Source: Verrucomicrobiaceae bacterium (lineage in GTDB: Bacteria > Pseudomonadota > Gammaproteobacteria > Pseudomonadales > CAMLJR01). Taken from it: a stretch of 52,445 nucleotides of DNA. The stretch lies in NCBI GenBank assembly GCA_028293825.1, contig JAQGNY010000045.1, forward strand, positions 1 to 52,445, in the 5' to 3' direction. The notes beneath the pieces were generated by a model, which did no database searches, was not told the DNA's origin, and saw only the letters and a list, made by a program, of their open reading frames with translations. The first letter of the stretch is position 1. Every line of letters starts with the position of its first letter. This document shows, piece by piece, positions 6,192 to 9,446 of the stretch. A program made the translations under genes and the position numbers.

Positions 6192-6962
6192 TTGTTTCAG
6201 CTCGATATCGCTACCTTACAAAATTGGCTTCATTTACTTCTGTGGCCGCTGATGCGTATCAGCGCCTTCTGCATGGTCGCGCCGATTTTCAGCGCCGCAT
6301 TTGTGCCGCCGCGCGTGCGTCTGATTTTTTCGATTTTGTTGACGTTGATTATCGCGCCGACGCTACAGAATCTGCCGCACCCCGATATGTTGTCGCTGGA
6401 AAGCGTGTTAATGGTCGCGCAGCAATTATTGATCGGCATCGGCCTCGCGCTATTTTTGCAAATGCTGATGCAGGCCTTCGTGGTGTCGGGACAATTTATC
6501 GCGACGCAAATGGGCTTGGGGTTTTCCTCGCTTAACGATCCGATGAATGGCGTGTCGGTGACGACGGTCAGTCAGTTGTATCTGATGATGGCGACGTTGC
6601 TGTTTCTCTCGCTTAACGGTCATCTGGTGATGATCGATGTATTGATCGAAAGTTTTCGCACGCTGCCGGTCGGGATGGAAATCGGCGACAACCGCCTGCA
6701 AACATTATTTGGCTGGGGCAGTTGGATGTTCGCCGCCGCGTTAATGATGGCGCTGCCGGCGGTGACGGCGCTGTTGATCATTAACTGCAGTCTCGGCGTC
6801 GTCACCCGGGCCGCGCCGCAATTGAATATTTTCGCGATTGGTTTCCCGCTGATGCTGCTATTGGGCTTTTTGATTTTGTGGACCAGCCTCGGCAACGTGC
6901 TGCCGAATTTCGAGCGCTACAACGGCGAAGTGCTGGACATCATGCGGCAATGGGTCAGCTGA
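6192..6962 (+). CDS. fliR: flagellar export gate protein FliR
   Basis: FliR completes the export gate with FliP and FliQ. The 256-residue product has about six membrane helices and family features such as LLWPLMRISAFCMVAPIF, GLGFSSLNDPMNG and LNIFAIGFPLMLLLG. No ATG or GTG is available between the in-frame fliQ stop and the conserved N-terminus. TTG 6192, eight bases after CGGAG, is therefore the likely start. The gene is the last of the fliL operon. A hairpin and the 21-bp repeat array follow it. Confidence 0.93.
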   Translation: MFQLDIATLQNWLHLLLWPLMRISAFCMVAPIFSAAFVPPRVRLIFSILLTLIIAPTLQNLPHPDMLSLESVLMVAQQLLIGIGLALFLQMLMQAFVVSGQFIATQMGLGFSSLNDPMNGVSVTTVSQLYLMMATLLFLSLNGHLVMIDVLIESFRTLPVGMEIGDNRLQTLFGWGSWMFAAALMMALPAVTALLIINCSLGVVTRAAPQLNIFAIGFPLMLLLGFLILWTSLGNVLPNFERYNGEVLDIMRQWVS

Positions 6963-7044
6963 TTGTTTCGAAGACTGACAGATGGGCCGAGCGGTCGCTA
7001 TTCGCGGGTATGGAGCTTTCGTTAGCGGGTCTGGCGCCGGTGCG

Positions 7045-7084
7045 AGCTATATCTGATTGAGCCGGAGCTCTATCAGATATAGCT
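7045..7084. repeat. perfect 13-bp inverted repeat after fliR
   Basis: AGCTATATCTGAT (7045-7057) pairs perfectly with ATCAGATATAGCT (7072-7084) around a 14-base loop. It lies about 80 bases after the fliR stop, at the left edge of the 21-bp array, and its arms fall in neighbouring array units. There is no T-tract, so it is not a classical terminator. It could still form an RNA hairpin or a palindromic protein site. Confidence 0.7.
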
Positions 7085-7421
7085 AAAGGTTGTTCGAAGT
7101 AGGCTTTAGCTTAATCAAAGTAAGCTCGAGGTCTCTCCAACACAGTTAAAGGTCGCTCGAATTGAGCTTTAACTCAATCAGAGTGAGCTCGGACTTAAAT
7201 ACAGAGAGCTAAAGGTGGCTCCGAGTAAGCTCGAGCTTGCTTTGACGTAGTTAAAGCTCTGAGTGACATAGTTAAAGCTATGAGCGAGTTAGTTATTGCC
7301 ACCTCGGGGCTCCCTTCTGCTTGTTCGAAGCGCGCTTTTTCGAGTGCCGAGCTAGTTAATCCGGGCTCAGAGCTGGTTCTTCCCCGCGCAGAGTCGGCTC
7401 ATCCGAGTTCCGAACTAGCTA
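7060..7421. repeat. 21-bp-period degenerate tandem array, fliR to ABM gene
   Basis: Reading from 7060 in steps of exactly 21 bases gives 17 units (7060, 7081, 7102 and so on to 7396), with a partial one at 7417. Most start AGCT or AGTT and a few GGCT or GGTT. Many carry a C at position 15, A at 18 and G at 19. A 63-base superperiod is visible in 7081-7206: units at 7081, 7144 and 7207 all begin AGYTAAAGG. There is no insertion or deletion although units differ at many positions. The array reaches the stop codon of the minus-strand monooxygenase. Stops interrupt its long frames, so it is probably non-coding. No other gene is seen between 6963 and 7418. Confidence 0.85.
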
Positions 7422-7709
7422 CGCGACCACTTGCAACACGCGCGACACTGGCGGGCTGGCGATGATGGCCATCAGCTGCTCCATGAACGCGGTTTCGGTG
7501 CGCCATTTGATGTAGTTTTCGTAATCGGCCTGTTCGCGCCAGTGTTCGAGAAATAAATAGGTATTGGGGCGGCTCTCGTGACGGCAGGCATTGACACTGA
7601 TGCAGCCGGGAAAGGCGCGCGTCTCCGGGAATGCCTGTTTAATCCCCGCCTCGAAATCCGCAATAAATTCCGGTTTGATGTTCAATTCCAAAATGACGCT
7701 GATACTCAT
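7419..7709 (-). CDS. ABM-domain putative quinol monooxygenase
   Basis: This 96-residue protein is a single antibiotic-biosynthesis-monooxygenase (YgiN-like) domain, a dimeric ferredoxin-like fold. It starts MSISVILELNIKPEF and contains FPGCISVNACRH and FLEHWREQADYENYIKWR, all typical. GGGAGA lies seven bases before the ATG on the minus strand. A longer minus frame runs on into the flhB region but has no such site. The gene is antisense inside a flagellar operon that is otherwise contiguous in relatives, and its stop coincides with the end of the 21-bp array. The substrate is unknown, and a link to motility is not supported. Confidence 0.85.
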   Translation of the reverse strand: MSISVILELNIKPEFIADFEAGIKQAFPETRAFPGCISVNACRHESRPNTYLFLEHWREQADYENYIKWRTETAFMEQLMAIIASPPVSRVLQVVA

Positions 7710-7929: not shown

Positions 7930-9087
7930 GTGGCGGAAAGCGAGAGCGGTGCGGAACGCAGTGAAGACGCAACCTCCAAGCGCCAGGAAAAGGCGCGGGA
8001 GGAGGGGCAGGTTGCGCGCTCGCGCGAATTAAACACCATGTTTGTGCTGATGGCCGGCGCTGCCGGCTTGCTGATGTACGGTCCGGCGATTGGTAGAGCG
8101 ATGAGCGATCAGATGCGTTTCAATCTGACGCTGCCGCGCGCGGTCGCGTTCGACGACAAAATGGCGGCCGCGCATCTGTTGTATTCGATGAACATCGTCG
8201 CGAATGAATTGCTGCCGCTGCTCGGACTGCTGCTGGTGGCCGCATTGGCGGGGCCGATTTTGATGGGCGGCTGGTTGTTCTCGCCGGCCGCGCTGATGCC
8301 GAAATTCAGCCGCATGAATCCGCTCGAAGGCATCAAGCGCATGTTTTCGGTGACGGCGTTGGTGGAGCTGGGCAAATCGCTGGCGAAATTTATCGTGTTG
8401 TGCGGTATCGCCTTCGTCACCATCAATTCGCTAAAAGGACAGCTGCTCGCGCTCGGCATGCAGCCGCTGGAAGTCGCGCTCGGCGCCGCCTTGCATATGA
8501 CTGGGTGGGCGGTGCTCGGTGTCAGCAGCGGCATGATTTTGATCGCGATGCTCGACGTGCCGTTTCAGCTGTTCGATCACAATCAAAAGCTGAAAATGAC
8601 CAAGCAGGAAATCAAGGAGGAGATGAAGGATTCGGAAGGCCGCCCCGAAGTGAAAGGGCGCATCCGCCAGTTGCAACGAGAACTCGCGCGCCGCCGCATG
8701 ATGGAAGCGGTGCCGAATGCCGATGTCATCATCACCAACCCCGAGCACTTCTCCGTCGCGCTGCGCTACGACGGCAGCCGCGGCGGTGCGCCGATGGTCG
8801 TGGCCAAAGGCACCGATCAAATTGCGATGAAAATCCGCGAAATCGCCCGCGCCCACAACATCACACAATTGCCCGCGCCGACACTGGCGCGCGCGATTTA
8901 TTACACCACCGAAATCGACAGCGAAATTCCGGCGCCGCTGTATTTAGCCGTCGCGCAGGTCCTCGCCTATGTCTTCCAATTGAAAACCTGGCGCGCCGGT
9001 CAAGGCCGCGAACCGCAGGCACCGGATAAATTGCCGGTACCGACCGATCTGGTATTCGACCAGAAGGGCAAGCGAGTTACGGCGTGA
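7930..9087 (+). CDS. flhB: flagellar export switch protein FlhB
   Basis: FlhB is the membrane protein whose cytoplasmic domain selects export substrates. The 385-residue product starts at GTG after GAGGGCGG. Its N-terminus is charged (SEDATSKRQEKAREEGQVARS) and four membrane helices follow. The cytoplasmic domain carries the autocleavage loop, here ITNPEHFSVALRY, with NPEH in place of the common NPTH. Asn and Pro at the cleavage point are kept. The C-terminal half resembles the small protein encoded at 24713-25087. Sigma-54 control from 7848 is likely. Confidence 0.95.
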   Translation: MAESESGAERSEDATSKRQEKAREEGQVARSRELNTMFVLMAGAAGLLMYGPAIGRAMSDQMRFNLTLPRAVAFDDKMAAAHLLYSMNIVANELLPLLGLLLVAALAGPILMGGWLFSPAALMPKFSRMNPLEGIKRMFSVTALVELGKSLAKFIVLCGIAFVTINSLKGQLLALGMQPLEVALGAALHMTGWAVLGVSSGMILIAMLDVPFQLFDHNQKLKMTKQEIKEEMKDSEGRPEVKGRIRQLQRELARRRMMEAVPNADVIITNPEHFSVALRYDGSRGGAPMVVAKGTDQIAMKIREIARAHNITQLPAPTLARAIYYTTEIDSEIPAPLYLAVAQVLAYVFQLKTWRAGQGREPQAPDKLPVPTDLVFDQKGKRVTA

Positions 9088-9120: not shown

Positions 9121-9280
9121 CAAATCCCCCCTAACCCCCCTTTTGTTAAAGGGGGGAATGGTTGGTGCTATTTGGATATTGTTGGGGTTATTCGAATGGT
9201 GTGGAATTGATTCAAGGCGCGATGTGGTGTTTGCCCCCTTTGACAAAGGGGGCTGCTCGCGCCGCGAGCGGGGGATTTTG
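9121..9280. repeat. palindromic TIR element, copy 1 (MITE-like)
   Basis: This 160-base element starts CAAATCCCCC and ends GGGGGATTTT. Inside are two strong palindromes, CCCCCCTTTTGTTAAAGGGGGG-like at the left and CCCCCTTTGACAAAGGGGG at the right, followed by GCTCGCG-C-CGCGAGC. It is a diverged neighbour copy of the element at 9288-9446. Elements of this C-run/G-run type are often mistaken for small proteins with PPLLKGG-like translations. The spacer 9088-9594 holds only these two copies and the flhA promoter. Confidence 0.8.
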
Positions 9281-9287
9281 GGTGGGG

Positions 9288-9446
9288 CAAATCCCCCATT
9301 CCCCCCTTTGTTAAAGGGGGGAATGGTTGGTGCCATTCGGATAATAATTGGTGTTATTCGGATGGTGTGGAATGGATTCGAAGTGCGGCGCAGTGTTCGC
9401 CCCCTTTAATCAAAGGGGGCTGCTCGCGCAGCGAGCGGGGGATTTG
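9288..9446. repeat. palindromic TIR element, copy 2 (MITE-like)
   Basis: This 159-base element has perfect 10-bp terminal inverted repeats, CAAATCCCCC and GGGGGATTTG. The internal order matches copy 1: a left palindrome around CCCCCCTTTG-TTAAAGGGGGG, a less conserved middle, then CCCCCTTTAATCAAAGGGGG and GCTCGCGCAGCGAGC. Only seven bases separate it from copy 1. No transposase is present, so mobility would have to come in trans. It may also act as a strong RNA structure between flhB and flhA. Confidence 0.82.

Follow-up and report, generated by a model that had tools for sequence, protein, structure and literature searches.

The array between fliR and flhB

The DNA analysed in this work is a stretch of 52,445 nucleotides, referred to here as the window, in which the spacer between the genes fliR and flhB contains both a convergent gene and a tandem array with a period of 21 bp. 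The features of this region, with their positions in the window, are as follows:

6192–6962, plus strand: fliR (Pfam Bac_export_1, 1e-67)
7040–7420, no strand: array with a 21-bp period, 18 units and no slip (unit starts 7040, 7061, ... 7397), recognised by column information, lag identity and a held-out matrix
7040–7291, no strand: left sub-array of 12 units, with a consensus of roughly GYTNNAGSTNNNTCNRANTNA in which unit positions 1, 9 and 17 are invariant
7292–7417, no strand: right sub-array of 6 units in the phase of the left sub-array, with T at position 6 and C at position 8 in 6/6 units
7045–7084, no strand: strong local palindrome (arms 7045–7062 and 7067–7084, 94% complementary, with a 4-base loop)
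7082–7270, no strand: three 63-bp higher-order blocks of three units each (block starts 7082, 7145 and 7208)
7419–7709, minus strand: gene with an antibiotic biosynthesis monooxygenase (ABM) domain, convergent (Pfam ABM, 6.2e-13)
7930–9087, plus strand: flhB, beyond the antisense ABM gene (Pfam Bac_export_2, 4.4e-125)

The array starts 80 bp past the stop of fliR, and its right end is abutted by the stop codon (7419–7421) of the antisense ABM gene. When read in 21-base steps, it consists of 18 abutting units that are arranged head-to-tail with zero slips at 7040–7417, and the model segmentation places it at 7043–7420. A preliminary description of this DNA had correctly reported a period of 21 bp without slip, but its count of 17 units from 7060 was one short at the left end. 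The lag-21 identity over 7040–7420 is 0.561, compared with 0.251 ± 0.023 (highest 0.336) in 500 dinucleotide shuffles, and the column information amounts to 14.89 bits per unit, compared with 2.63 ± 0.49 (highest 4.13) in 500 such shuffles. The base G is present at unit position 1 in 17 of the 18 units, A at position 17 likewise in 17, and T at position 3 in 16, and the mean likeness between the units is 47%. The consensus sequences of the left half (12 units) and the right half (6 units) are unlike at unit positions 6–8 and share a common phase. No T run is seen by eye on either side of the palindrome at 7045–7084. Tandem Repeats Finder reports just 2.5 copies (7243–7295) of the 18 units, whose divergence is probably too great for that program, and arrays of this kind may thus be under-reported.

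The gap between flhB and flhA (window 9121–9445) contains a repeat of about 166 bp in two tandem copies that are 85% alike; this repeat has inverted C-run/G-run ends (AAATCCCCC ... GGGGGATTT) and it resembles a small mobile element.

A family of nine arrays in the same genome

The window array alone served to build a sequence-only model of 42 bases (R1), and a search of the genome of origin with it (4.34 Mb in 56 contigs; 150 of 619 candidates scored) yielded 70 matches at E ≤ 10, all of which fall within nine loci:

The window
C11, 70.7–71.1 kb
C18, 42.6 kb
C18, 133.3 kb
C19, 111.8 kb
C36, 34.8 kb
C39, 69.5 kb
C40, 41.6 kb
C52, 36.8 kb

The single R1 matches outside the window are modest (best E 6.5e-4, next 0.008, and 4.4 for C39), though they cluster. 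A second model (R2), made from 40 two-unit rows from seven loci, gave 99 matches, all of them inside the same nine loci; as only 150 of the 429 R2 candidates were scored, scattered single units could escape detection. Clear 21-bp arrays are present on inspection at eight of the nine loci, the window included, with C39 being weaker (lag-21 identity 0.48), and each array comprises about 11–20 diverged 21-bp units in a fixed phase (one array weak), the consensus of the window array having served to set the unit phases of the others initially. The existence of a nine-locus array family in this genome is close to certain, and the array downstream of fliR is not a one-off, as eight further loci, seven clear and one weak (C39), are found in the same genome. 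The nine loci constitute a set of dispersed, intergenic, non-coding arrays with a nearly constant pitch and a dyad-symmetric unit consensus. The superperiod of 63 bp that had been described for the window array is real, but it is not dominant there (lag-63 identity 0.54, lag-42 0.48, lag-21 0.56); lag 63 exceeds lag 21 in six of the eight arrays measured, the exceptions being the window array and C40.

Genomic context of the arrays

The genes that flank the nine arrays, identified by simple ORF calls of which most are backed by Pfam, are unrelated and have no common theme:

fliR / ABM-domain gene (window)
class-V aminotransferase / ORF without Pfam match
FAA hydrolase / DUF3658 protein
nitronate monooxygenase, tRNA / ORF without Pfam match (C11)
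CAP12-type TIR gene / DMT-family gene (C18a)
luciferase-domain gene / possible methyltransferase (below cut-off)
TonB receptor / RNase T-type exonuclease
DUF1289 protein / MiaE
GNAT acetyltransferase / ORF without Pfam match

No Pfam family recurs among the 18 flanking proteins that were scanned, three of which are without any Pfam match. The tRNA gene near C11 is on the minus strand (L042 3421–3504) and lies about 190 bp to the left of the array. The gene adjoining the C18a array (L043 2462–3304) encodes a CAP12/Pycsar-type TIR effector, which carries an anti-phage defence domain.

In terms of orientation, again from simple ORF calls, two of the nine arrays (window and C39) lie between convergent genes, seven between same-strand features and none between divergent genes, a pattern which rests on nine loci and is suggestive only. 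The preliminary description had considered a transcription barrier that insulates convergent genes, and this proposal is unsupported because just two of the nine arrays are placed in this manner. An intrinsic terminator was likewise rejected, as the region 6900–7480 contains one weak terminator-like site and shuffled sequences give 0.6.

Conservation of the register in diverged sequences

To compare the arrays with one another, each was scored by a matrix derived from the other arrays only, with phase changes allowed at a cost. The window array scored 177 bits in one phase over 378 bp, and C19, C36, C18a, C18b, C52 and C40 scored 131–266 bits, each in a single phase. The C11 array is in two phases, of 190 and 82 bits (272 summed), which are split by a 4-bp loss, and C39 has the lowest score (67 bits) and an excursion that is short and doubtful. 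Outside the arrays, in the nine stretches and also elsewhere in the window, the highest-scoring segment reaches 20 bits by the pooled matrix. Across the nine arrays there is accordingly one clear slip that departs from 21 bp (−4 bp, C11) and one doubtful slip (C39). In the eight arrays examined for this purpose, 745 of 2373 positions are off the consensus of their array, and the units inside one array differ on average at 38–53% of their bases (mean pairwise identity 0.47–0.62).

At short range, the register is not perfectly rigid, since BLAST alignments between and within arrays contain 42 gap openings, which show that compensated or alignment-made gaps do occur inside the arrays. The frequency of gap openings per mismatch is 42/1387 (0.030) in 51 array alignments and 11/102 (0.108) in 12 pairs of non-array repeats from the same stretches; the Fisher p of 0.001 for this contrast is indicative only, because the alignments overlap one another, and the counts are small.

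Dyad symmetry, helical phase and curvature

The unit can be reflected in 21 ways, of which p + q = 9 pairs best, and this is the same in all eight arrays tested (those of at least 11 units, with C39 outside the set); when the columns of the pooled matrix were permuted 5000 times, its score was never reached. The unit has two dyad axes, one between positions 4 and 5 and the other at position 15, which are 10.5 bp apart. As the unit consensus is an imperfect palindrome, the symmetry axes in these eight arrays recur every 10.5 bp, or one helical turn, on a single face of the DNA. The R1 and R2 models also match the opposite strand, in keeping with this dyad. Overall, the dyad pairs show only weak signs of compensatory change (618 paired cells vs. 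599.8 summed from the within-array shuffled means), and the dyad is thus chiefly a property of the consensus. The pair 12/18 is clearly in excess (61 vs. 46 ± 3.6 by within-array shuffling), and among the other pairs of the ten a slight excess is seen for 4/5, 10/20 and 11/19, with the rest near or below expectation and 3/6 and 13/17 notably below it. A covariation scan of all position pairs gave moderate signals only.

The predicted curvature is high in all eight arrays for which it was computed, with array means in the 92nd to 99.9th percentile (105-bp windows) of a background that consists of the window, eight fetched stretches and two Dyella loci, the arrays themselves being included, as calculated with a wedge model. 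Runs of A4/T4 begin mainly at unit positions 3–4 and 12–15. The helically phased or bent DNA platform that the preliminary description had listed among the possible roles of the array is supported by these curvature values, by the period kept over nine diverged arrays and by the 10.5-bp distance between the dyad axes.

Distribution in other genomes

Scans with R2 of 194 genomes of the order, 369 of the class and 398 of the phylum (overlapping sets that include the genome of origin, with stricter filters on the large scans and a subset of the weak matches inspected) revealed no array beyond the own genome; all of our searches for relatives target this particular consensus, and 21-bp arrays of other sequence would be missed. 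In the order scan, 93 of the 194 genomes, the own genome included, have a match at E ≤ 1 among the matches listed, which is about the chance level; the own genome has 43 of the matches listed and any other genome at most five. The class scan at E ≤ 0.02 identified four other genomes with one match each, and the phylum scan at E ≤ 0.01 one other genome with one match. Of 33 loci from other genomes (order and class scans) that were checked for the period, strong lags of 21 and 42 are present in L070 alone, where they look like a coding alanine-rich heptad repeat. Two further candidates were also rejected: L066 is a microsatellite, and L103, the phylum-scan match, lacks such a period and resembles coding DNA. 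Two other genomes among the 369 were matched by a peptide from C40, and neither of them has an array. No relatives were detected in a search of plasmids and a search of phages, each with one array as query (queries C11 and C40), or in viral contigs searched with one degenerate consensus.

The sole genus and family mate compared (G001; genome 89% complete, FliR 62% identical) has no R2 match, either in the order scan, which included it, or at the fliR-flhB locus. Its fliR-flhB gap contains a gene of the SBF-like transporter family (L004 2401–3384; Pfam SBF_like, 4.5e-87), and hence the extra gene in this spacer is not the same in the two species. The idea, put forward in the preliminary description, that the period would be kept in related genomes despite sequence change does not hold for this genus mate, but it does hold for the eight paralogous arrays of the same genome. 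As far as sampled, the array family appears to be restricted to this lineage. No description of such arrays was found in the literature as judged by titles and the openings of abstracts, which does not imply their absence from print.

Comparison with known repeat systems

The REP units of the GTAG and CGTC super-families are described as short palindromes in bacterial intergenic DNA that are often downstream of genes, sometimes clustered and uneven between species; they occur as single units or as head-head/tail-tail dimers, head-tail arrangements being under-represented in most genomes, and an association with RAYT-type Y1 transposases is given for the GTAG super-family only (PMC3733652). The nine arrays resemble REP/BIME elements in that short palindromic units, with a common dyad in 8/8 arrays, are dispersed between predicted genes. 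They are unlike them in that the units abut in a fixed 21-bp register in up to about 20 copies, and in the 38–53% of bases that differ between units. The REP tag, GTAG or CGTC at one end of the palindrome, is no part of the consensus either: 118 units (2478 bases) hold GTAG 4, CTAC 3, CGTC 2 and GACG 2 times, the expectation being about 9.7 each at equal base use. The array units are head-to-tail throughout, but a dyad-symmetric unit has little direction. Three matches to Y1-type transposases (Y1_Tnp) are present in the genome at two loci (G000:C12:92801–93073 and C27:148051–148754), and no R2 match at E ≤ 10 is found in the stretches around them, another difference from REP elements of the GTAG type. 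A REP element with its RAYT was rejected on these grounds, as GTAG/CGTC is not in the consensus and no array match lies by the Y1-type loci.

The iteron and centromere arrays of plasmids (parC, tubC and R6K-type) are tandem sites pitched at whole helical turns, on one face of which a protein loads; these sites are few and better conserved, and they lie beside the gene of their binding protein. The nine arrays share with them a constant whole-turn pitch (21 bp) but differ in being dispersed as nine copies, with no common neighbour gene among the 18 flanking proteins scanned. A third comparison is with the A-tract phased curved DNA of bacterial chromosomes, in which sequence features recur at the helical pitch (PMC3940949, PMC3372288). 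The A4/T4 runs at preferred unit phases are similar to this, but the arrays consist of a discrete, defined 21-bp unit with a consensus and a dyad, unlike a diffuse genome-wide bias.

Possible explanations for the arrays

A fixed 21-bp pitch in sequences this diverged is accounted for neither by a reading frame nor by pairing of RNA, and we therefore infer a constraint on the double helix itself. A DNA-binding or DNA-bending protein that is symmetric, and probably dimeric, could load side by side along each array and it would form a filament or a bent patch. That the arrays are phased platforms for a putative protein of this kind is the reading which we tentatively prefer, at somewhat less than an even chance; it is held at this level as no candidate for the protein partner was found, and no common neighbouring gene was seen among the flanking proteins. 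The degenerate units (identity 0.47–0.62), which are loose for specific sites, are a further point against it, as are the weak compensatory change at the dyad pairs and the 42 gap openings in the BLAST alignments. The nine patches would serve the organisation of the chromosome (nucleoid structure, anchoring, topology) rather than the regulation of particular genes, because the neighbouring genes have no common theme. In its fullest form, this proposal states that the arrays are lineage-specific platforms, in which tandem palindromes are selected for their pitch and the position of the dyad and not for exact sequence, and in which a putative architectural protein reads shape and phase in the folding or anchoring of the chromosome; we give this form a somewhat lower chance than the platform reading as such. 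The lack of a match in the genus mate weighs against a conserved organiser.

Nearly as likely as the platform reading is that the arrays represent a selfish or neutral REP/BIME-like satellite, whose palindromic units are duplicated from one intergenic site to another and multiply as 21- or 63-bp blocks, and whose register and palindrome are kept by recombination and template switching at imperfect palindromes without any use to the cell. Copying between loci is visible, as the C19 and C40 arrays align over 221 columns at 73% identity and were probably copied from one locus to another. The 63-bp higher-order blocks, the intergenic position of all nine arrays, with none between divergent genes by simple ORF calls, the absence of arrays from the other genomes sampled and the presence of further, non-array repeats in the array loci all accord with such an origin. 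It is opposed by the indels, which are rarer in the arrays than in the local yardstick (0.030 vs. 0.108 gap openings per mismatch, from overlapping alignments and small counts), and by the three Y1-type transposase matches, whose surroundings at two loci are free of R2 matches.

An RNA element, in which the array is a string of 3′ untranslated hairpins that ends, stabilises or attenuates transcripts, seems improbable. It would fit with the fact that each of the nine arrays has a predicted gene 3′ end within 47–324 bp of at least one side, or touching it (window), and with the fold of 6960–7440, which on each strand is stronger than that of dinucleotide-shuffled sequences (z −3.5 and −3.8). However, the two strands fold comparably, and retained RNA hairpins would tolerate G-U pairs on the transcribed strand, from which an excess of G-T is expected; on the strand presumed to be transcribed, that of the upstream gene, the 1180 dyad pairs include 66 of G-T and 82 of A-C, and hairpins as the conserved entity were therefore rejected. 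Relative to column shuffles, which break dinucleotides too, the folding z-scores range from −4.0/−3.1 (C52) through −2.3/−2.8 (C11a), −2.2/−2.4 (C40) and −2.4/−1.0 (window) to +0.3/+1.1 (C18b), and shuffling of the unit order alters the fold clearly in C52 only. An exact pitch of 21 bp is also unneeded for a hairpin string, and the single weak terminator-like site is set against an expectation of 0.6. No Rfam family reached the threshold over the nine arrays: the window array gave sub-threshold matches to eukaryotic microRNA and lncRNA models only, probably because of its palindromes, and the sole match over the other eight was the tRNA beside C11.

A gene for a heptad-repeat protein (seven codons per 21 bp), either decayed or overlooked, which the preliminary description had already thought unlikely for the left half of the array, is very improbable indeed, for although some arrays have long open frames (in C40, frames of 104 and 129 codons on one strand and 206 codons on the opposite one), all six frames are closed in the window array (8, 9, 9, 10, 4 and 9 stops), C19, C36, C11b, C18a and C52, and none is open throughout the set of arrays. 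Open frames number one or two in C11a, C18b and C40, the last of which has one frame without a stop and others with 1 and 2 stops. A Pfam scan of 14 ORFs overlapping the arrays gave no match above the cut-off (one C11 ORF has a sub-threshold match to HTH_20, E 0.029). The register persists even in arrays full of stops, where it cannot be a reading frame that maintains it. In some Bacillus genomes, 21-bp repeats covered by heptad-like hypothetical ORFs may represent a comparable case.

Significance of the arrays

If, as in the platform reading, selection maintains the pitch while the sequence drifts, the arrays would provide natural evidence that a protein in bacteria can recognise the phase of the helix and the geometry of the dyad along about 300 bp, with nine ready-made sites in one genome at which to look for this protein. 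If the arrays are selfish instead, they would represent a satellite-like kind of bacterial repeat whose register stability needs a mutational explanation.
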